Shown here: one piece after another, positions 5,691 to 49,456 of the stretch
Numbering within the stretch: the stretch's first letter is position 1
Layout of the letters: each line of letters opens with the position of its first letter
From: Arthrobacter sp. SLBN-83
GTDB lineage: Bacteria; Actinomycetota; Actinomycetes; Actinomycetales; Micrococcaceae
Reading direction: 5' to 3'
NCBI RefSeq assembly: GCF_006715285.1
Contig: NZ_VFMX01000001.1
Span: forward strand, 1,922,001 to 1,986,000
DNA length: 64,000 bases
Translations under genes and position numbers: made by a program
The notes under the pieces: generated by a model
What the model was told of the DNA's origin: nothing
What the model saw: the letters and a program-made list of their open reading frames with translations, nothing else
Databases searched by the model: none

Positions 5691-7436
5691 CTAGGGCCGT
5701 AGGACCCGGCCGGGTGCCGGACCGGCAGGAACCGCAGCGCCGGGAGGTATCAGCGGGACAACCTCCAACCGGGTTCCCGGCCCCGCGATTACCAGGACCT
5801 GCTGCCCGGCAGTGGCTTCCAGCGCCGCCGCAACCTGCCGGATGACGTCCCCAGCCACAGGCGAAAGATCGGACGACGGCGGAAGTCCGGCGCCGCCGTC
5901 GTCCGCCCTCAGCCAGGTGGTCACCTTCGCCCCGGTGGCGTCAGCGATGCCGCGCGCCAGGGCCTCCGGGTCCACGGCATCAGGGCGGTAGCCGCTGACC
6001 AGGGTGACCCGCTCGATCACCCTCTGGTGTACGGGGGCCGCCGCGGCAAGCAGTGTCCGGTCATGACGCCACAACGCAAAGTGGTAGCCCGCCACAAGCC
6101 CGGCGGCCACCAGGAGGCCCAGCGGTGCGCGGATGCGGTCCAGGACGCTGCCGCCGCTGACCTCGCCCAGCAGGAATTCGAAGAGCCGGTAGCCAATCAC
6201 CAGCAGCGTAATGAGTGCCACCACCGCGCTCACGCCAAAAAATGCCACCAGGTACACGCGCCGGCCTGGCGGAATCTCATCCGCGCTCCGCGGCTGGTGC
6301 CGGGGCTTCCACGCCAGCCACCACACCGGCGCACCCACCGCCAGGGAACTGATGCCGCCCAAAAGAAGGGTCCGTGTAGCCCTGCCCGCCAAGGGCGATA
6401 CGGCTGCAGCCAGCAGTGCGTTGACCACAACGCCAACACCCGACGCCGCAGCGGCAAGCGCCACTGCCGACGTCACCAGGAGGCTGGCCCGCCGGGTCCT
6501 GGTGGAACGGTCCACGGACGTGCTGCGGTGGTAGCGCCACACCAGCGCCCCGATGGTCGCGGCGGCGATGGCAGGAGCGAGTGGTTCAAGCAGGTTGTCC
6601 AAGGGATCGCTGCGGTCGAACGCCAGCCGCAGGAGGACGAACAGGATGACGCCCAGCCCGCCAAGGGCGGTGATGCCGGCCAGGAAGATGCCCACGCCAA
6701 TGATGGCGACGTCCACCAGGCCGGTCTGGAAGCGCCGGCCGCCCTCCCGGAACCAATGCCACCACCACACCAGCGCGCCGCCAGCTGCCCAGACCAGGGA
6801 CCGGAGGACGTCAACCCACCAGGGCTCAAAGGCGGCGGTTGCCGTGAAACCGCGGATCGCGACGTCCAGCAGTGCGCTGAGCGCAGCGATCGCGGCACCG
6901 GTGCCCAGCAGCAGCCCAAAGACGGAGCCGACGACGGCGCGCACGTCCTCGAGGTGGCGCGACGCTTTGCCGGGGTGCTTCCACATCCACCGGTGCCACC
7001 ACCAAATGGCCGCCCAGACGACCCCGGTGGCAAGCGGGGACGGCCACTGGCTCTCCTGGGTGCCAATGAAGGACGTGGCAAGATCCAGCAGCGACGTGCT
7101 GGCAATGATAAGCGAGACGGCGTACATGCCGGTCAGGTAAAGGCCCCAGCCGGGCGCCCTGCGCTCGGCTTCGTCGTCGAGCCGGCGCCATACGAACCAC
7201 CAGAGCAGCAGTGCCAGTGGGCCGCCGATCAGGGTGAAGGCCAGGGACAGGGCCAGCCCGGTCACGTCGCCGGAGACCAGGGTGGTTGCCGTACGGAAAA
7301 GGCGCTCCAGCAGCCCGCTTACACCTGACGCGGCGATGACCACCAGCGCGAACAGCAGGACGTAGAGGATCAGCCGGCGGAGGGTTGCCAGGCTGCCTGT
7401 TGGCGTGGGGACCGTTGGTGCTGCCGGCGCCGTCAT
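5691..7436 (-). CDS. Polytopic membrane protein with DUF5671-like repeats
   Basis: 581 residues from the ATG at 7436, which overlaps the stop of the upstream gene (ATGA); an in-frame ATG at 7496 would run into that gene. About a dozen transmembrane helices are visible, in repeating blocks of a long hydrophobic helix pair followed by a WW-rich loop (WWWHRWMWKHPGK, WWWHWFREGG, WRYHRS, YHFALWRHDR), which matches the DUF5671 pattern. A soluble C-terminal region of about 120 residues follows. Within it, codons at 5871-5904 form a GGACGACGGCGG-family palindrome encoding DDGG..PPSS, as if a mobile palindrome had entered in frame. Function unknown. Confidence 0.65.
   Translation of the reverse strand: MTAPAAPTVPTPTGSLATLRRLILYVLLFALVVIAASGVSGLLERLFRTATTLVSGDVTGLALSLAFTLIGGPLALLLWWFVWRRLDDEAERRAPGWGLYLTGMYAVSLIIASTSLLDLATSFIGTQESQWPSPLATGVVWAAIWWWHRWMWKHPGKASRHLEDVRAVVGSVFGLLLGTGAAIAALSALLDVAIRGFTATAAFEPWWVDVLRSLVWAAGGALVWWWHWFREGGRRFQTGLVDVAIIGVGIFLAGITALGGLGVILFVLLRLAFDRSDPLDNLLEPLAPAIAAATIGALVWRYHRSTSVDRSTRTRRASLLVTSAVALAAAASGVGVVVNALLAAAVSPLAGRATRTLLLGGISSLAVGAPVWWLAWKPRHQPRSADEIPPGRRVYLVAFFGVSAVVALITLLVIGYRLFEFLLGEVSGGSVLDRIRAPLGLLVAAGLVAGYHFALWRHDRTLLAAAAPVHQRVIERVTLVSGYRPDAVDPEALARGIADATGAKVTTWLRADDGGAGLPPSSDLSPVAGDVIRQVAAALEATAGQQVLVIAGPGTRLEVVPLIPPGAAVPAGPAPGRVLRP
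5871..5904. repeat. GGACGACGGCGG-family palindrome inside a coding sequence
   Basis: Perfect 12-bp arms (5871-5882, 5893-5904) with the same sequence as the intergenic terminator palindromes. It lies in frame within the C-terminal domain of the membrane protein at 5691-7436. Either a coincidence of GC-rich coding or an insertion of the repeat that kept the frame. Confidence 0.55.
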
Positions 7437-34793: not shown

Positions 34794-34813
34794 AAAACCG
34801 CCCAAGGAAGAAC

Positions 34814-34855
34814 GTGGGCGGACGACGGCGGGAGGTCCCGCCGTCGTCCGCCCAC
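34814..34855. terminator. GGACGACGGCGG-family bidirectional terminator
   Basis: Perfect 20-bp arms (34814-34833, 34836-34855), then CTTTTC. It sits between the convergent cupin and universal-stress genes, so it may serve both. Member of the same palindrome family as 2630, 44983 and 49342. Confidence 0.8.
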
Positions 34856-34873
34856 CTTTTCTTGCTGGGTAGG

Positions 34874-40293: not shown

Positions 40294-40379
40294 CTGCCCT
40301 CCCCGTCGTCTGCATGTACCTGACGAATGCTACGCCGGTAAGGGATTCCGTTCGATGTGGCCAGGGGCAGTTGCCTGGG

Positions 40380-40653
40380 TCAGCGCTGGCCGGCTTCGAC
40401 CAGGAGCTTGAGGTTCTCGAGCGTCTGCTCGCGGGCGCATTCCTGCATGCGCTCGATGATGAGTTCGTCCACGAACTTTCCCACCGCGCTTTCCCGGGAC
40501 GTTGTAGACGGTTCCCACACCGCCGTCGCCCTCGATCTTCTCCGCCTCGCCCAGGTTCACCCACCAGGACGCCCAATGCCTGGGGTCTGACGCTACCTCC
40601 ACGACGCGGTCCACCGGTGCGTTGATCGCCGTGCTCACCTTGATATGGCCCAT
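40380..40653 (-). pseudogene. SRPBCC-family gene with internal frameshift/deletion
   Basis: The first frame gives a good SRPBCC start, MGHIKVSTAINAPVDRVVEVA then WASWWVNLGEAEKIEG, up to about VGTVYNV (near 40500), and then turns to nonsense. A different frame then reads ESAVGKFVDELIIERM and CAREQTLENLKLLVEAG to a stop at 40380-40382, which is a normal C-terminal helix for the family. Together they span about 90 codons against an expected 140 or so. The central beta strands are therefore missing and the frame is broken. Most likely an out-of-frame deletion; a sequencing error would not explain the missing middle. Confidence 0.65.
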
Positions 40654-40755
40654 GGGATTCTCCTTGTGCTCGCGGCCGGACAGGTGTGGTGAACAGACGC
40701 TACCGGCAGCCCTGCCCGGCCAAACAGGGGCAAAGGGCCCCTGGAGGAGATGCCC

Positions 40756-41088
40756 CTAAACGCCTGTGGTGGGGCGGGCGGGTGCGATCCGCACCACCGT
40801 GACTTTGACCGCGGCTTCGGCGGGGGAGAGGCTGCTGTGCACCGCCGCGGCCACGGCCCGCACCACGTGGGGCGTCCGGGCGTCGGGGCTGACGCCGATG
40901 CGGACATTGACCTCCGTGCGGCCGCCTACGTCCCGGGCCTCGACCAGCTGCGCGTCCCCGGCACCGCCGTTGCCGGGCTGCATAAGGGATGCCACCCGGC
41001 CCGGAAGCCGCTGCCAAAGGTTCCGGGCGGGAAAGACCTCGGTGACGCCGTCGACCGCCAGGATGGCCGCTTGCAAGGGGTTGGTCAC
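40756..41088 (-). CDS. Asp23-cluster small protein
   Basis: 110 residues ending the envelope-stress operon, overlapping the anti-sigma/Asp23 gene by four bases. The sequence alternates beta-like segments (TEVNVRIGVSP, AAVKVTVVRIAPA) that resemble the Asp23/Gls24 core, but it is shorter than standard members and begins TNPLQAAILAVDGVTEVFPARN, as in heavy-metal-like or Asp23-associated domains. Function unknown; its place in the operon suggests a role with Asp23 proteins. Confidence 0.65.
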   Translation of the reverse strand: MTNPLQAAILAVDGVTEVFPARNLWQRLPGRVASLMQPGNGGAGDAQLVEARDVGGRTEVNVRIGVSPDARTPHVVRAVAAAVHSSLSPAEAAVKVTVVRIAPARPTTGV

Positions 41089-41666
41089 AGTTCCTCCCGG
41101 GGAGCGTCGATGATGTCGGTGATGGTGATGTCGATCGCGGCCACATTCAATTCAGTGTGGCGCGCCAGCGCCTCTGCCAGATCCGCGCGAAGGGACGCGG
41201 CGCTGGGCATCAGCGGGTGGCCGAACAGGACCGCAAGGTCCAACCGCACGCTCACCGGCTCTCCGGGTACGGTGACGTCGCCGTCCAGCCGGACCTTTCC
41301 GGCCACCGCCCCGGGCAGGCTGTCCGTCACGGAGCGCACCAAGGCAAGGACCGACCCCTCGGTTTGGGACAGCGTATCCGCTGGATCGTCCGCGCGCAGC
41401 GGGATGCTTCGGCCCGGGCGCAGCTCCAGCGCCAGGTGGGCCAGGATGTCCTTCATCCAGTCATCGTTACCGCTGCCGGCAGCCGCAAGGTCACTGGCAA
41501 ACAGTTCTTCACCGGCAGCGGAGAGCCTGCGAAGCGAATCGAGGCCGCTGCGGCATTCCGGGCAGGATTCAAGGTGGGGCGGGTCGGGGAACTCACCGGT
41601 GTCCAGGTAGAGGCTCAGTTCCTCGAGCGTATGGCCGCACTCGAACGTCTCGTGGGGCATGCTCAT
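41085..41666 (-). CDS. Zinc anti-sigma domain fused to an Asp23-like domain
   Basis: 193 residues from the ATG at 41666, which overlaps the sigma-factor stop (ATGA). The N-terminus carries a zinc anti-sigma motif: CGHTLEELSLYLDTGE, then HLESCPEC (H-x3-C-x2-C) near residues 30-37. The second half (about 95-190) reads like Asp23/Gls24: AGKVRLDGDV, VSVRLDLAVLFGHPL, LNVAAIDITITDII. There is no membrane segment, unlike most ECF anti-sigmas. The order sigma then anti-sigma with coupled translation supports a pair. I infer that the Asp23-like part senses or docks to the other Asp23 proteins of the operon. Confidence 0.7.
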   Translation of the reverse strand: MSMPHETFECGHTLEELSLYLDTGEFPDPPHLESCPECRSGLDSLRRLSAAGEELFASDLAAAGSGNDDWMKDILAHLALELRPGRSIPLRADDPADTLSQTEGSVLALVRSVTDSLPGAVAGKVRLDGDVTVPGEPVSVRLDLAVLFGHPLMPSAASLRADLAEALARHTELNVAAIDITITDIIDAPREEL

Positions 41667-42229
41667 CGCCAATCTTCCATTTCGCGGACCAGTGTAATCC
41701 GGGCCCGGGCAAGCCGCCCCCGGACACTGGCTGGGCTGATGTTCAGGGTCCGGGCAATCTCTTCATAGCTTTGGCCGTTGATTTCCTTCAGGATCCAGCA
41801 GCGACGCTGCTCTTCCGGCAAGGCTGACAACGCAGCCCTCAAGGATGTGATGCCTGCACCGGCCACTACCGCTGTTTCCGGCCCGGCTCCCGGGGAAACA
41901 GCGTCCGCCGGCTGGTCATCCTCCGGTCCGGTAAGGGTGGCGTGGTTCCGGCGCCTGCGCAGCAGGTCGATGCTGCGGCTGCCGGTCAGGCGCAGGAGCC
42001 AAGCCTTCACGGCGGCAGGTTCCCGCAGGGTGTCCAGCTGCTGCCACGCCTGGACCAGCACCTCCTGCACAACGTCGTCCGCGTCGGCGTAGGAGCCGGT
42101 CAGCCGGCGGGCTGAGGCACGCATGTGCGGACCGTAGCGGCGGGCCAGCGTTTCGAACGCCGCCGTATCGCCGTCGGCCGCCCTGCCTGCCAGGATGGCA
42201 TCGGGGACCACGTCCAGCTGGTCCCGCAT
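41663..42229 (-). CDS. ECF-like sigma-70 family factor
   Basis: 188 residues from the ATG at 42229 (AGGAG nine bases upstream); the frame extends to a GTG at 42247. Region 2 is seen as AFETLARRYGPHMRASARRL and DADDVVQEVLVQAWQQLDTL, with the -10 recognition helix. A linker of about 30 residues precedes region 4 (ALPEEQRRCWILKEINGQSYEEIARTLNISPASVRGRLARARITL). There is no extra C-terminal domain. Coupled by ATGA to its probable anti-sigma. It may activate the Asp23 operon or an envelope-stress regulon. Confidence 0.85.
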   Translation of the reverse strand: MRDQLDVVPDAILAGRAADGDTAAFETLARRYGPHMRASARRLTGSYADADDVVQEVLVQAWQQLDTLREPAAVKAWLLRLTGSRSIDLLRRRRNHATLTGPEDDQPADAVSPGAGPETAVVAGAGITSLRAALSALPEEQRRCWILKEINGQSYEEIARTLNISPASVRGRLARARITLVREMEDWR

Positions 42230-42346
42230 CAAGGGTGCTCCTGTCACCGGTTTCTGCTTTCACTATCGGCGCTAGCGCCTGAGGGGCGGCAGGCGGGCCT
42301 GCGCGCCGGGAAGGCAGCGCAGGCCTGCCGCGGGGAGAGGAAGTGG

Positions 42347-42577
42347 CTACTCTTTGCCGAAGCCCTCTTTGACCTTGGCCGCAGCATCCTTGAGGTTGCT
42401 GCCGATGCCCTTGGCGGCATCCTTGACCTTTTCGCCCGCCTCCTGCAGCTTGGCCTGGGTCTGGTCGCGCTGGCCTTCGCGTTCCAGTTCCCCGTTGCCG
42501 GTCAACTTCCCGGCGCCCTCCTTGGCCGCGCCGAGGTGGTTGGTGGCCGCGTTGTTGAGCTTGTCGTCGAGTCCCAT
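42347..42577 (-). CDS. CsbD-family stress protein
   Basis: 76 residues: MGLDDKLNNAATNHLGAAKEGAGKLTGNGELEREGQRDQTQAKL then Lys/Ala-rich helices (AGEKVKDAAKGIGSNLKDAAAKVKEGFG). A small, highly charged, heat-stable helical protein of the CsbD type. The start at 42577 has AAAGGAATTG upstream; an ATG six bases earlier is less well placed. Within the Asp23 cluster, 12 bases from the preceding gene. Confidence 0.85.
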   Translation of the reverse strand: MGLDDKLNNAATNHLGAAKEGAGKLTGNGELEREGQRDQTQAKLQEAGEKVKDAAKGIGSNLKDAAAKVKEGFGKE

Positions 42578-42589
42578 GGTCAATTCCTT

Positions 42590-43237
42590 TCAATCGGTTC
42601 GTGTTTCCTGGCCCGCGCGGTGTGCGCGGGCAAGCTTTGTCGTGGGTCCACTTCCTATTCGGACCAGGACGGTGCTGCGATGACCCAGCAGCGCGTCAAT
42701 CCCGCTGACCAGTCCTTCGGCCAGGTCTGCCACCTCCCGCGGGGAGGCGCCCTTCCGTGCCTGCAGCGTGAGCCGGAGTCGGGGGGACGTGTTCCGTTTG
42801 TTGCGGCGGTTTCCCCGTCCGCGCCACGCCGTCAGGGAGCTCCCGACGACGGCCCGGTTGCCTTCCAGTGCTTCCTCGACTGCCGCTGCCAGGTAGGAGA
42901 TGTCCACTGCCGTGTCCCCGAGCTCCGGATCCTGCGCCAGGGCCGCTGTGCCGGTCCGCCCGCCGCCCTGCCGGGCCAGCCACACAACACTGATTACCGC
43001 GCCGAGGAGCGGCAGCGCCGGCACGGCGAGTGCCCACCAGCTGCCCAGGGGGTCCGGTGCAGGGGCCGTGACCAACAGGTGCCGCCACCTTTCCAGCAGG
43101 CCCGAGGTCACGGTGGTCCGCTGCCCCGCAAGGGCCGGGACCAGGGCCGCACCTGCCGCCAGTACTCCCGCCGACAGCAGCACCAGCCCAGTGATGGCCA
43201 GGAGGATCCTGTTCAATGCCCTGTTGGTGTTGTTCAC
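42590..43237 (-). CDS. DUF6286/AmaP-like membrane protein
   Basis: 215 residues with two hydrophobic helices near residues 8-40 and 63-90 separated by an extracytoplasmic loop, then a soluble domain with Asp23-like strands (DTAVDISYLAAAVEEALEG, PRLRLTLQARKG, TVLVRIGSGP). In Asp23 operons such a protein anchors Asp23 to the membrane. It overlaps the preceding gene by four bases (43234-43237). Confidence 0.7.
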   Translation of the reverse strand: MNNTNRALNRILLAITGLVLLSAGVLAAGAALVPALAGQRTTVTSGLLERWRHLLVTAPAPDPLGSWWALAVPALPLLGAVISVVWLARQGGGRTGTAALAQDPELGDTAVDISYLAAAVEEALEGNRAVVGSSLTAWRGRGNRRNKRNTSPRLRLTLQARKGASPREVADLAEGLVSGIDALLGHRSTVLVRIGSGPTTKLARAHRAGQETRTD

Positions 43238-43815
43238 CGCCCCACCGCTCCTTCCGTTGCAATCCGCACGTGCGGCGACAAGGCCTTGCGCAGGCGGAGG
43301 GCAGCGACTTCGTCCGTTGCTGCCGAGGCGAGGACGTTTGGGTCGAGGGTGATGCCCGACGTCGGACGGACGCGTACCAGCGCACGGTTCCGGGTCACGG
43401 TGGTGGCCACCTGCTCCGGGGCCAGGTTGGCGGCCAGGCGTACCCTGCGTGAAATGGCGGCGGCGATTGCTTCGTCGTCCACTACCAGGGCACTGCGTTC
43501 GCTGGCCATGGGCCGGCGGCCGCGCTGCCCGCCCGTGACCGCGGCGAGCAGCAGGGCCGCGCCCACTGCTGCAAAGGCGGCTCCGGTCGCCACCAGGCCT
43601 GCCGGCAGGACGGCCTTTGGCAGGTCCCGGGCGAGCGCTGCCAGTTGCTGGGGTGAGGCCACAAGCGGTAAGCGGCCCAGCAGGGACAGGATGCTTTCAG
43701 TCCCGAGCCACAGGCAGGCCGCCAACAGCAGGACTGCGGTCACGGCCGATAGCCCGGCGCGCGATGAATGCGTCTCCCGCCGGATGATCCGCCTGTTGGT
43801 CCTGGCCTGGTTCAC
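43234..43815 (-). CDS. DUF6286-like membrane protein
   Basis: 193 residues. The Arg-rich N-terminus is followed by one or two helices (GLSAVTAVLLLAACLWLGTESILSLLG and VLPAGLVATGAAFAAVGAALLLAAV) and a soluble tail of about 85 residues (RSALVVDDEAIAAAISRRVRLAANLA, ALVRVRPTSGITL). The architecture parallels the next gene and fits DUF6286, seen only in actinobacterial Asp23 clusters. It overlaps both neighbours by four bases. Confidence 0.7.
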   Translation of the reverse strand: MNQARTNRRIIRRETHSSRAGLSAVTAVLLLAACLWLGTESILSLLGRLPLVASPQQLAALARDLPKAVLPAGLVATGAAFAAVGAALLLAAVTGGQRGRRPMASERSALVVDDEAIAAAISRRVRLAANLAPEQVATTVTRNRALVRVRPTSGITLDPNVLASAATDEVAALRLRKALSPHVRIATEGAVGR

Positions 43816-44183
43816 GGTTTCCTCCTGTCCTGTTTGGCGTCCACACGGGGTTCAATGGCGCGCCGCCCTGCCCCGGCAATGCGGATATTGATGCGGCCGC
43901 AATCCATACCGGTGACCTGGCGGCTAAGGGACGAAATGCCCTGCCTGGCGATGCCCGCCCGTTCGAAGGCTGACTGCTGCTGTCCGGTCCGTCCGAGCAA
44001 TTGGGGAGTCGGCAGCCTGACCGAGAGGTCCACTCCCAGCTTCCCGGCGTCGTCCGCCAGGGTGGCGGACACGTCGCCGCCCCTGACGCCGAAGGCGCCC
44101 GCGGCCACCGCTTCGATGGTGTGCCGCAGTGCTGCCGGTGCGATGCGGGTGTGGCCCAGCCTGGCCGGCCGTGGCCCGGTCAC
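43812..44183 (-). CDS. Asp23/Gls24-family protein
   Basis: 123 residues from a GTG at 44183 that overlaps the upstream stop (GTGA). The longer open frame upstream would overlap the DUF2273-like gene and is Arg/Pro nonsense. Asp23 signatures: RIAPAALRHTIEAVAAGAFGV, VSATLADDAGKLGVDLSVRLP, and a late strand GRINIRIAG. The family forms a membrane-associated layer under the cell envelope. Second of two clear Asp23 paralogs in the operon. Confidence 0.7.
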   Translation of the reverse strand: MTGPRPARLGHTRIAPAALRHTIEAVAAGAFGVRGGDVSATLADDAGKLGVDLSVRLPTPQLLGRTGQQQSAFERAGIARQGISSLSRQVTGMDCGRINIRIAGAGRRAIEPRVDAKQDRRKP

Positions 44184-44371
44184 GATGACGAACGGCGGCC
44201 GCGCAGGGCATCCAGCACGGCGCCGAGGTCCAGCCTGCCTTCGGCTGCCCTGCCCAGGACGGCTCCGATTCCCATGAAGAGCGCCGTGAGCAGGAACCCC
44301 CAGAAGCCGAAGGCCAGGGCGGCCAGAGCCAGGACGGCGCCAGCCGCGGTGGCGGCTGCCAGGGGGCTCAT
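44180..44371 (-). CDS. DUF2273-like small membrane protein
   Basis: 63 residues, almost wholly two hydrophobic helices (PLAAATAAGAVLALAALAFG, FLLTALFMGIGAVLGRAAEG) and a charged tail (ALRGRRSSS). Small two-helix DUF2273 proteins accompany Asp23 in Gram-positive bacteria and help to anchor it. Coupled on both sides by four-base overlaps. Confidence 0.75.
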   Translation of the reverse strand: MSPLAAATAAGAVLALAALAFGFWGFLLTALFMGIGAVLGRAAEGRLDLGAVLDALRGRRSSS

Positions 44372-44847
44372 GCAACCCTCGGTTCGCGGGCGGCGTCATC
44401 CGAGTCGTCTTCGTCGGACGGGACGTGGATGTCCGTGATGGTGATGTTGACTTCGGTGACCTCCATTCCCACCAGGTCCTCCACTGCCGAGTAGACAGCG
44501 TCCCGGGCGTTGTCCGCCACCTGCTGCAGGGGGTGCGGGTACTCCACGACGAGGGTCACGTCCACGGCAACCTGGGTCTGGCCCACCTCGACGCTGACGC
44601 CCTGGGTCAGGTCCTTCTGGCCCACTTTTTCGCGAAGGGTTCCCAGGGCCCGGGCTGCGCCGCCGCCCAAGGCGTGCACTCCTTCGATCTCCTGGATGGC
44701 GATGCCGGCGATCTTGGCCACCACGCCGTCCGCCACGGTGGTGCGGCCGCGGCCGTCGTGGCCGTTGCCGGAGGAAAGTTCGTGGGTGGGGGCGGCAGCG
44801 GCCGTCTTCTGCTGGACCGTTGCGGGGGTTTGGGTCTGCGTGGTCAT
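44368..44847 (-). CDS. Asp23/Gls24-family envelope stress protein
   Basis: 159 residues from the ATG at 44847, with AAGGAG eight bases upstream. It is the first gene of the operon. A disordered Thr/Gln/Ala-rich N-terminus of about 35 residues leads into TVADGVVAKIAGIAIQEIEGVHALGGG, then VSVEVGQTQVAVDVTLVVEYPHPLQQVA and VTEVNITITDIHVPSD, which is the full Asp23 pattern. An acidic tail (DEDDSDDAA) follows. A dyad lies in the leader (44868-44884). Confidence 0.88.
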   Translation of the reverse strand: MTTQTQTPATVQQKTAAAAPTHELSSGNGHDGRGRTTVADGVVAKIAGIAIQEIEGVHALGGGAARALGTLREKVGQKDLTQGVSVEVGQTQVAVDVTLVVEYPHPLQQVADNARDAVYSAVEDLVGMEVTEVNITITDIHVPSDEDDSDDAAREPRVA

Positions 44848-44867
44848 TTCCGTCGCTCCTTCTCGTT

Positions 44868-44884
44868 CTGGAACAGCGTTCCAG
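44868..44884 (-). promoter_or_regulatory. Dyad in the leader of the Asp23 operon
   Basis: CTGGAAC-AGC-GTTCCAG, perfect 7-bp arms, about 20 bases before the Asp23 start and overlapping nothing else. Operator or small hairpin next to the ribosome-binding site. Confidence 0.45.
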
Positions 44885-44982
44885 GGCGCCTCGTGCGCCC
44901 TCACAGGTAAGGACGTGGGCAGGAAGGGAAGCGTCACGCAGAAACTTATGTGATCGTTGTCACTTTTGTTTCGGGGCAGAAA

Positions 44983-45031
44983 AAAGGACGCGGACGACGG
45001 CGGGTGGGTCCCGCCGTCGTCCGCGTCCTTT
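44983..45031 (-). terminator. GGACGACGGCGG-family terminator, 22-bp arms
   Basis: Perfect 22-bp arms (44983-45004, 45010-45031) and a 5-base loop, with an A-run at 44980-44985 that reads as a U-tract on the minus strand. It lies 12 bases beyond the stop of the small gene at 45044 and insulates it from the Asp23 operon. Confidence 0.85.
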
Positions 45032-45043
45032 GCTTGGGGCTGC

Positions 45044-45238
45044 TTACAGCGCCAGTGCCGGCTCATCCCCGCGCACGCTCAGCGTGAAGGTGTTCGGTCC
45101 GCTGCAGTGGACTGCAATGCGGCAGGTGGTGGTGTTATGGCGGGAAGAAAGGTCGGAGACCGCGGAGTCGAGGGTCTCGTGGAGCGACGCGCGGTCCCAG
45201 ATCTTCAGCGTCACGGATTCGGCAGTGTTAAACGTCAT
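45044..45238 (-). CDS. Small hypothetical protein (64 aa)
   Basis: MTFNTAESVTLKIWDRASL then DSAVSDLSSRHNTTTCRIAVHCSGPNTFTLSVRGDEP. Soluble, with two Cys and alternating beta segments; I do not recognise the family. GGAAAGTACTGAACA precedes the ATG. It has its own strong terminator and no coupled neighbour. Codon use is normal for the genome. Function unknown. Confidence 0.55.
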   Translation of the reverse strand: MTFNTAESVTLKIWDRASLHETLDSAVSDLSSRHNTTTCRIAVHCSGPNTFTLSVRGDEPALAL

Positions 45239-45482
45239 TGTTCAGTACTTTCCTGTGTCTAGCCGGTTGTCTGCCGGCGGTGGCCTGTCCGCGCTCGGAG
45301 GGTCGGTGGCCTGTGCTCACCGGTGGGCCTCGTTGCGTCACCAGGATGTCAAGGGCGGATGGTTTCCGGCCCTGCGCATCCATAGTGCCCATGCCGATTG
45401 AGAGGCCACAACCAAATATGCCGTTTATTGCAAGTGAATCTCATCACGTGTGAGTGGCGACACACGTTTGGAGGCGTCGCGG

Positions 45483-46244
45483 CTATTCATCGAAATGGGC
45501 GGTGATCCTGTCTTCGCCGGAAATCGAAGTTATGACGGTTGCGGCCACTTCCCTGAGCTTGACGTTTCTGGTACTCGAGGCCCGCGTGAGGATGCTGAAG
45601 GCGGTATCGCGGTCGCAGCGGTTCTGGGCCATTATCGCGCCCACCGCCATGTCGATTACGGTGCGTGACTGCATGGCGGCGGTCAGGTCGTTCCGCGCTT
45701 CGCTGAGCTGTGAGATCCGGATGATCAACCGCAGTGAACTGGCGGCCTGCGCTGCAAAGGTCTCGACGGCCACGATGTCCTCGCCGGAGAATCCGTTGCT
45801 CCGGCCGGAGTAGAGATTTAATACGGCTTCCGCGTCCCCCGCCAGGTCCAGCGGGACGGCGAGAATCGAGGACACGCCGTGCTGTGCGGCCGTCCGGACG
45901 TAGGGGGACCAGCGTGTTTCTGCGGCCAGGTCCGGCACAAGGAGGGTCGTTCGCTGGTGGAGTGCCGTAAGGCAGGGGCCTTGGCCGAATCCGTTCTGCA
46001 GCTCGTCCAGTGCCCTGGCGGCAGCATCACTGGCTGCTACTGCCTGCGGCCTTTTGTTGCGGAGGACTGTCACGCCGCTGTGGATGGTGTTCCCGGCACT
46101 GGACAAGCGCGAACTGGCCAGAACTGCCAGTTCCGTGAGGAAAACCCTGATGTCCTGGCTTTCCAGTACCAGCTGCTGAAGTGTCAGTTCCGTTGCGTCC
46201 AGAGGCGGTCCCTGCGGTTCCTGGGCCGGGTATTCCTCACTCAC
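45483..46244 (-). CDS. GAF-ANTAR regulator
   Basis: 253 residues, GTG start overlapping the stop of the small upstream ORF (GTGA). GAF domain at about 25-175 (FGQGPCLTALHQRTTLLVPDL, STILAVPLDL-like core) and a C-terminal ANTAR domain (about 185-245, AMQSRTVIDMAVGAIMAQNRCDRDTAFSILTRASSTRN). ANTAR proteins bind paired RNA hairpins and prevent transcription termination. The GAF part may sense a small ligand or redox state. Divergent from a paralog at 46856. Confidence 0.85.
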   Translation of the reverse strand: MSEEYPAQEPQGPPLDATELTLQQLVLESQDIRVFLTELAVLASSRLSSAGNTIHSGVTVLRNKRPQAVAASDAAARALDELQNGFGQGPCLTALHQRTTLLVPDLAAETRWSPYVRTAAQHGVSSILAVPLDLAGDAEAVLNLYSGRSNGFSGEDIVAVETFAAQAASSLRLIIRISQLSEARNDLTAAMQSRTVIDMAVGAIMAQNRCDRDTAFSILTRASSTRNVKLREVAATVITSISGEDRITAHFDE

Positions 46245-46855: not shown

Positions 46856-47590
46856 ATGTCGAGTTCATCGGAGCATAGATCTGTGCAGGAACTTCAGAGC
46901 ATTCTGGTGGGCTCGGAGAACGGGGTTGAGTTCCTTTCCGGCCTGTCGCGCCTCGCCGCCGCCGCGGTGTCTGAGGCTTCCGGGGACACCATCGAATGTG
47001 CAGTCACCTTGAAGATAAAACGCCGGCCTGCAACTGCTGCCGGCAGCAGTGCTCGGGCTATCGAACTTGACCATATCGAGCAGGAGTTGGGCGACGGCCC
47101 CTGCGTTCGGGCGCTCAGGGAGATGGCCCCGGTAATCATCGATGACGTGGACAGGGATCCGCGCTGGCAAACGCTGAACCAGAAGCTGGCTGAGCACGGT
47201 GTGCGCAGCACTTTGGGTGTGCCGCTGGAGATCACCGGCGACGCCAGTGCTGCCCTGAACTTCTTTGCCACGAAGCCCGGCGTGTTCACCGCTGACGTCT
47301 ATGACAAGGCCGTAGGTTTCGCCGCTGCCGCCCACAACACCCTGAATCTTTCCGTTCGAATTAACAACGCGCAGAACAGGGCCGACGACCTCGAAGCGGC
47401 AATGCAAAGCCGTACCGCCATCAACCTGGCCTGCGGGGTGATCATGGCGCAGAACCGGTGTTCCCAGGAAGAAGCGATGGAAATCCTCACCAAGGTCTCC
47501 AGCAACCGCAACCGGAAACTCCGGGATGTGGCCAGCGAGCTGATCGAGCAGTTGTCGGGCAGCACTGCCAGGACGCACTTCGACGGATAG
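46856..47590 (+). CDS. GAF-ANTAR regulator
   Basis: 244 residues. GAF at about 15-170 (ELGDGPCVRALREMAPVIIDDV, VRSTLGVPLEITGDASAALNFFA) and ANTAR at about 180-240 (AMQSRTAINLACGVIMAQNRCSQEEAMEILTKVSSNRN). Clearly paralogous to the gene at 45483, more so in the ANTAR part, so both may recognise similar RNA. The 220-base gap between the two contains a TTGACA (46752-46757), but no well-spaced -10 is obvious. Confidence 0.85.
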   Translation: MSSSSEHRSVQELQSILVGSENGVEFLSGLSRLAAAAVSEASGDTIECAVTLKIKRRPATAAGSSARAIELDHIEQELGDGPCVRALREMAPVIIDDVDRDPRWQTLNQKLAEHGVRSTLGVPLEITGDASAALNFFATKPGVFTADVYDKAVGFAAAAHNTLNLSVRINNAQNRADDLEAAMQSRTAINLACGVIMAQNRCSQEEAMEILTKVSSNRNRKLRDVASELIEQLSGSTARTHFDG

Positions 47591-49302: not shown

Positions 49303-49341
49303 ATTCATGGCACTGCCACCAGCCGGTGCCAGGCGCCAGGG

Positions 49342-49381
49342 TGAGCGGACGACGGCGGGACGTCCCGCCGTCGTCCGTTCA
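49342..49381. terminator. GGACGACGGCGG-family terminator
   Basis: 20-bp arms (49342-49361, 49362-49381) with a single mismatch that would be a G-U pair in RNA, with no fixed loop bases. It follows the AHSA1 gene, as does the copy at 2630. Confidence 0.75.
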
Positions 49382-49456
49382 TCTTGGGCGTTGAACGTGC
49401 CAGCCGCCCGCTGAATACTGGAAGTTGAGGATTGGGCGAGGGCAGGCGGTGGGGCA

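Follow-up and report, generated by a model that had tools for sequence, protein, structure and literature searches.

The window, by which we mean the whole 64,000-nucleotide stretch of DNA that was analysed, carries on its reverse strand an operon that begins immediately past an intrinsic terminator (44984..45030, (-)), a 20-bp stem with a T run that closes the preceding gene. Its first gene is a canonical Asp23 gene, asp23a (44368..44847, (-); PF03780, E 3.6e-26), followed on the same strand by a small DUF2273 membrane protein (44180..44371; PF10031, E 1.8e-6) and by a second Asp23-like gene, asp23b (43812..44183), whose own profile matches Asp23 relatives at many loci. Two membrane proteins come next: an anchor-like one (43234..43815, (-)), recognised by TM scan and a weak AmaP score (E 0.09), which holds the same position as DUF6286 genes in Streptomyces, and an AmaP-like anchor (42590..43237, (-)) with TM-like segments in the TM scan and a weak NCBIfam AmaP match (E 0.008). 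A CsbD-like stress gene (42347..42583, (-); PF05532, E 4.5e-13) separates these anchors from an ECF sigma factor gene (41663..42229, (-)), a gene for a two-domain fusion protein (41085..41666, (-)) and a third cassette gene encoding a stand-alone Asp23-like domain of 110 aa (40756..41088, (-)), the GTG of which overlaps the fusion stop. Adjacent genes mostly share 4 bp; the main exception is the gap between csbD and the sigma gene, which spans 99-117 bp depending on the sigma start and contains an imperfect hairpin lacking a T run. The first-pass annotation had placed a sigma-fusion pair at 41085-42229, in an operon with two Asp23 proteins and their anchors. These coordinates are correct, and the operon does hold both Asp23 proteins (44847-44368 and 44183-43812), two TM-bearing anchor-like proteins and DUF2273; two of its genes, the CsbD gene between the anchors and the sigma gene and the Asp23-like gene 3' of the fusion (41088-40756), were absent from that description.

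The sigma factor (188 aa) consists of regions 2 and 4 only, with no extension in Pfam and NCBIfam searches (Pfam Sigma70_r2, E 3.9e-16; Sigma70_r4_2, E 4.9e-15), and its ATG at 42229 is preceded by CAGGAG. Its TGA (41665-41663) and the ATG of the fusion gene (41666-41664) share the letters ATGA, as the first-pass annotation had pointed out. This coupling recurs: the fusion gene lies immediately behind an ECF sigma gene in every case found, and in each of the 56 cases tallied its first start codon and the sigma stop overlap by 4-10 nt. The fusion itself (193 aa) comprises helices like those of zinc anti-sigma (ZAS) domains at residues 1-82 and an Asp23-like alpha/beta domain at about residues 100-188. 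The best 19-residue Kyte-Doolittle mean of 1.06 agrees with the earlier statement that it has no membrane helix, and we regard it as a probable soluble anti-sigma factor.

The motif HLESCPEC, noticed before as a zinc anti-sigma signature, occupies fusion residues 31-38 and is joined by a cysteine further N-terminal, giving C10...H31-x3-C35-x2-C38; the codons of these putative zinc ligands, as delimited by two homologue alignments, span 41553..41639 (-). An alignment of 22 homologues shows no change at C35 or C38 and at least 90% conservation at H31, and the complete C + HxxxCxxC pattern is present in 41 of 54 distinct sigma-adjacent homologues; because it is conserved in this way, the motif is not a chance occurrence. 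In ZAS proteins the fourth ligand is a Cys or His lying 23-26 residues N-terminal of HxxxCxxC (PMC4960319), and in the fusion Cys10 stands 21 residues ahead of H31. When the ZAS family was compared by hhalign with RsrA/RslA-type ZAS proteins from related genomes, it matched with 95.2% probability and E 2.9e-8 and with the ligands in register (reversed control, E 0.006). Against PDB sequences, the top match of the ZAS profile was RslA (3hug_B, E 0.0013), with RsiW and DdvA lower. In the structural model of the fusion, helices are predicted at about 14-23, 29-34, 36-64 and 68-82, ahead of the alpha/beta domain, and in order and length these predicted helices match helices I-IV of RsrA as given in PMC4960319. 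A model of the ZAS part by itself gave no confident Foldseek match and recovered no known ZAS structure, and VIA-align returned nothing usable for it.

The N-terminal motif might instead be a structural zinc knuckle with no anti-sigma relation, a reading in keeping with the lack of a Pfam zf-HC2 call for the window fusion and with the weak scores of eukaryotic zinc fingers among the PDB sequences compared with the ZAS profile. However, the profile-profile match to ZAS proteins, in which the ligands line up, together with the constant place of the domain behind an ECF sigma gene, makes this very improbable. By sequence homology the N-terminus of the fusion is a zinc anti-sigma domain, which would make the fusion a putative inhibitor of the adjacent sigma factor; that the fusion binds this sigma factor we consider very likely, judging from these sequence relationships.

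Because the fusion is of the CHCC type, the main rival to the layer-sensing reading set out below is a thiol switch like that of RsrA. Here the ZAS domain would itself be the sensor: oxidation of C10 and C35/C38 would expel zinc and free the sigma factor, as in RsrA, and the Asp23-like domain would only dimerise or localise the protein. The CHCC types are the disulfide-sensing ones (PMC4960319), the fusion has the CHCC-type set including an N-terminal Cys, the alignment of the ZAS part shows at least 90% conservation at C10, and all three cysteines of the window fusion are putative ligands. Yet 13 of the 54 homologues have lost at least one putative ligand and still keep the sigma factor and the Asp23 part, which disfavours a thiol as the general signal: the His is replaced by Tyr or Arg in four, the first Cys is missing in two, and the whole motif is missing from seven, so zinc is not essential everywhere. 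The gene neighbours, too, are envelope-layer genes rather than thiol-redox genes. On balance we think a thiol switch of this kind unlikely.

The C-terminal half of the fusion, which the first-pass annotation had read as Asp23-like and which a profile search might have found unrelated to Asp23, proved related: its family aligned with canonical Asp23 over 99 columns with 98.2% probability and E 3.3e-14 (reversed control, E 0.1), and unrelated controls failed to match in this comparison as in that of the ZAS part. As a single sequence the window fusion scores E 0.0021 and 18.9 bits against Pfam Asp23 (PF03780), below the curated cut-off of 28 bits, and we therefore call it Asp23-like rather than a PF03780 member; among the 22 homologues, 18 match Asp23 at E<=0.1, the best at 1.6e-8. 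By these comparisons the fusion C-terminus is a divergent Asp23-like domain. Its predicted fold is similar to that of the metal-binding regulatory domains found in CDF transporters (MamM, Z 9.6, rmsd 2.5, 80 aligned). A Foldseek search with the whole fusion returned CDF transporter and secretion-ring domains through the C-terminal plait only, a common fold from which we draw no function.

By profile comparison the conserved third cassette gene encodes a divergent Asp23-like protein (family of 32 against Asp23: hhalign 86%, E 5e-6), and its equivalents in Streptomyces plasmids are annotated Asp23/Gls24. It accompanies the sigma-fusion cassette also where the latter is remote from asp23 (L216; L212 by position only). 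The overlap of this gene with the fusion stop and its company with the fusion even where asp23a is not nearby would suit an entirely cytoplasmic arrangement, in which the Asp23-like domain has either the third protein (41088-40756) or a ligand as its partner, the membrane layer is uninvolved, and linkage to asp23 means only that this is the target operon. The fold likeness to CDF metal-binding domains fits the ligand version of that idea, but likeness of a common alpha/beta plait proves no function, and Asp23a and the anchors accompany the cassette in nearly all genomes. We regard this arrangement as unlikely.

The first-pass annotation had suggested a survey of how often the fusion occurs, and we obtained counts for the genus, the family, the class and a sample of the phylum. 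The fusion is encoded in 37 of 101 genomes of the genus, in about a quarter of those of the family and in about two dozen of 296 class genomes. Among the genomes searched, the full-length protein is confined to the class Actinomycetes; in the phylum-wide sample outside the class, matches cover the Asp23 part only. A 90% identical fusion is encoded on Pseudarthrobacter contig C4D7, and the same layout is found in Arthrobacter sp. ERGS1:01 and in the Streptomyces sp. KN37, NBC_01558, S. longhuiensis and S. anulatus plasmids, the fusion of these named examples being annotated as 'Asp23/Gls24 family envelope stress response protein'. There are two main layouts, with the cassette either in line 3' of the anchors, as in the window, or divergent from asp23a; in a third layout (L074, L076) sigma, fusion and a small Asp23 gene precede asp23a. 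Compared across genomes, the sigma factor and the fusion are a conserved actinobacterial module.

The operon tie to Asp23 genes that the first-pass annotation described for one locus extends across the genus, where a separate asp23a lies within 6 kb of 36 of the 40 fusion copies. All 37 fusion-bearing genomes of the genus have two to six Asp23 matches, some of which may be the fusion itself, and all 64 others have at most one, this single match being a separate, nearly universal copy. A few sigma-fusion cassettes remote from any asp23 gene, at L208, at L212 and in G106, speak against such a tie. In one relative, G639 (L215, G639:C2, about 6200-6600), the block from asp23a through the fusion has been deleted as one piece: the promoter and terminator remain, a truncated 110-aa gene starts right after them, and the flanks are kept as well.

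An ECF-type promoter, GCGTGACG-N16-CGTCCTT, lies ahead of asp23a at 44909..44939 (-) and is the top site of the 64 kb; the full site, read from 44939 to 44909, is GCGTGACGCTTCCCTTCCTGCCCACGTCCTT. A CGTC -10 element is typical of ECF promoters. The consensus GCGTGAsG-N16-CGTCyTT is found at the front of the asp23 operon in the window and in the majority of sigma-linked relatives. We scored sites with a position weight matrix (PWM) trained without the locus under test and, for the window, without its whole genus; the window promoter then scores 20.1 (p 0.005). The number of shuffles, 200, sets a limit to the p values, and the sequences are mutually related. A site at p<=0.015 was present at 25 of 31 divergent loci, whose intergenic regions commonly have it pointing toward asp23a, and at 8 of 10 in-line loci, the window included. 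At L074 and L076, where sigma leads the operon, the site stands in front of sigma. With the same PWM, no such site was found at the other asp23 gene of this genome or at nine further asp23 loci without a sigma gene in the fetched stretch. Genome-wide, a strict promoter pattern has two matches including the window site (one in the control), and in a genus-wide scan with a strict pattern we read 14 of the matches as lying just upstream of asp23a in fusion-bearing genomes. A loose two-box pattern was discarded as a genome-wide marker, with 20 matches against 23 in the control; because that pattern is nonspecific, the promoter assignment rests on position and conservation. At the Streptomyces plasmid loci both divergent promoters share a lineage-specific variant, GCGTAAC...TGTC, as expected if a single sigma factor reads both.

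Upstream of the window promoter is a CRP/GlxR-type palindrome, AGTGACAACGATCACA (44949..44964, (-)), which begins 25 nt ahead of the -35 block. A TGTGA-N6-TCACA palindrome is found upstream at 16 of 44 loci, including the window, and nearly always starts 24-25 nt before the -35 block. We consider it a candidate site for a CRP/GlxR-type input; it would be unusual for an ECF promoter to be under CRP-type control. The palindrome at its fixed distance could also mean that a different sigma factor reads the conserved promoter, or that a CRP-type regulator governs it, and that the regulon of the sigma factor described here is a different, unlinked one. That four genomes retain a weak site without the fusion would be in line with this: in G032, G058, G117 and G100, all of one genus, a weaker promoter variant heads the asp23 operon and the fusion was not detected. 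But the site occurs only at sigma-linked operons and is absent from the ten sigma-less asp23 loci above, and lineage variants shift together on both divergent promoters, so that we think a different sigma factor quite unlikely and consider it likely that this one drives the asp23 operon. Two genomes first taken for site-without-sigma cases, G056 and G115, were dropped, their fusion being located elsewhere in the genome, and the fusion-less promoter of G639 was set aside as a counterexample, being the deletion scar of the same operon. At the loci L152, L156 and L157 (G032, G100 and G117), which have the weak promoter and no detectable sigma-fusion pair, L156 retains a divergent small Asp23-like gene.

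We found no sigma-70-like promoter within 40300-45300, and neither an ECF-type site nor any other recognisable promoter in the csbD-sigma gap; the sigma gene is therefore probably transcribed from the operon promoter, and the sigma factor here probably also transcribes its own gene from it.

Soluble Asp23-family proteins have been predicted as putative anti-sigma factors for the groups ECF286 and ECF292 (Casas-Pastor 2021, as reported in PMC8999054). As described there, these systems resemble ours in gene layout, with a soluble Asp23-family protein encoded beside an ECF sigma factor, and in being actinobacterial (Streptomyces, Mycolicibacterium). The window pair is probably of this kind, and the central idea of coupling Asp23 to a sigma factor is therefore not new. 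That review lists Asp23-type and ZAS-type groups separately, unlike the combination seen here, and mentions no ZAS domain in Asp23 proteins, no asp23 promoter and no third Asp23-like gene. In the searchable literature we found neither a ZAS domain within an Asp23 protein, nor the common promoter of the asp23 operons and its CRP-type site, nor the third gene, all of which Casas-Pastor 2021 may already note. The 2022 review describes Asp23-type ECF systems as still without experiments (PMC8999054), and the zinc domain, the target promoter and the third Asp23-like partner add testable detail to this class predicted in 2021.

Among characterised proteins, RsrA of Streptomyces is likewise soluble, has the C...HxxxCxxC motif and four helices in the order predicted for the fusion, and is encoded just after an ECF sigma gene, but it is a single-domain protein lacking the added Asp23-like C-terminus, and its Cys-His spacing is 26 against 21 in the fusion. 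ChrR of Rhodobacter shares the two-domain soluble plan of a ZAS domain with a C-terminal domain that has another job, but is of the HHCC type with a cupin sensor, whereas the fusion is CHCC with an Asp23-like domain. RslA of M. tuberculosis (3hug), the ZAS anti-sigma factor of SigL and the top PDB match found with the profile of the ZAS part, differs in being HHCC and membrane-associated. In S. aureus, Asp23 and an AmaP-type anchor also share an operon, with asp23 under SigB; we know of no ECF sigma factor or ZAS fusion in that system.

The best overall explanation, and one we hold somewhat probable, is that the sigma factor, restrained by its ZAS-type anti-sigma factor, drives the asp23 operon in a layer-sensing loop. 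The ZAS domain would clasp the sigma factor and keep it off RNA polymerase, with the Asp23-like domain as the placing or sensing part of the anti-sigma factor. Once freed, the sigma factor would read the asp23 operon from its 44939-44909 promoter. Since the genes for sigma and anti-sigma lie at the end of that operon here, the circuit would be positively autoregulated and at the same time supply its own brake. We infer that the Asp23-like domain would most likely co-assemble with the Asp23/AmaP layer tethered to the membrane, or else with the small third protein. With the layer intact, the anti-sigma factor would keep the sigma factor; were the layer depleted or disturbed, the sigma factor would be freed and more layer made, in a supply-sensing loop. 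That docking on the Asp23 layer is the signal is a guess from anatomy, offered tentatively. The proposal of the first-pass annotation, that the Asp23 layer could hold or release the sigma factor through the fusion and so couple envelope state to transcription, is thus supported in part, by the joined domains, the genetic tie to the asp23 operon and the promoter, and its layer step is plausible. Somewhat doubtful, in our judgement, is the stronger proposal that the layer is itself the sensor, holding the sigma factor through its built-in ZAS-Asp23 anti-sigma protein and releasing it on loss or disturbance, which would lead to more layer. In S. aureus the cell-wall stress response is induced when Asp23 or AmaP is lost (PMC6954212). 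If layer sensing proved true, an anti-sigma factor would here read the state of a protein polymer attached to the membrane, with no transmembrane or proteolytic step. Asp23 coats the membrane of Gram-positive bacteria in abundance; here fusion, operon and promoter tie it to one sigma/anti-sigma pair, and this offers a direct and cheap genetic test of what the coat senses.

Two further features of the surroundings were noted. GC-rich hairpin or terminator-like sequences in the gaps between genes are alike at window positions 34811-34860, 44983-45031 and 49319-49385, with BLASTN matches in a related genome. Beside the operon, two GAF/ANTAR-like proteins, so named from reading the sequence, are encoded close together at 45483-46244 (-) and 46856-47590 (+).
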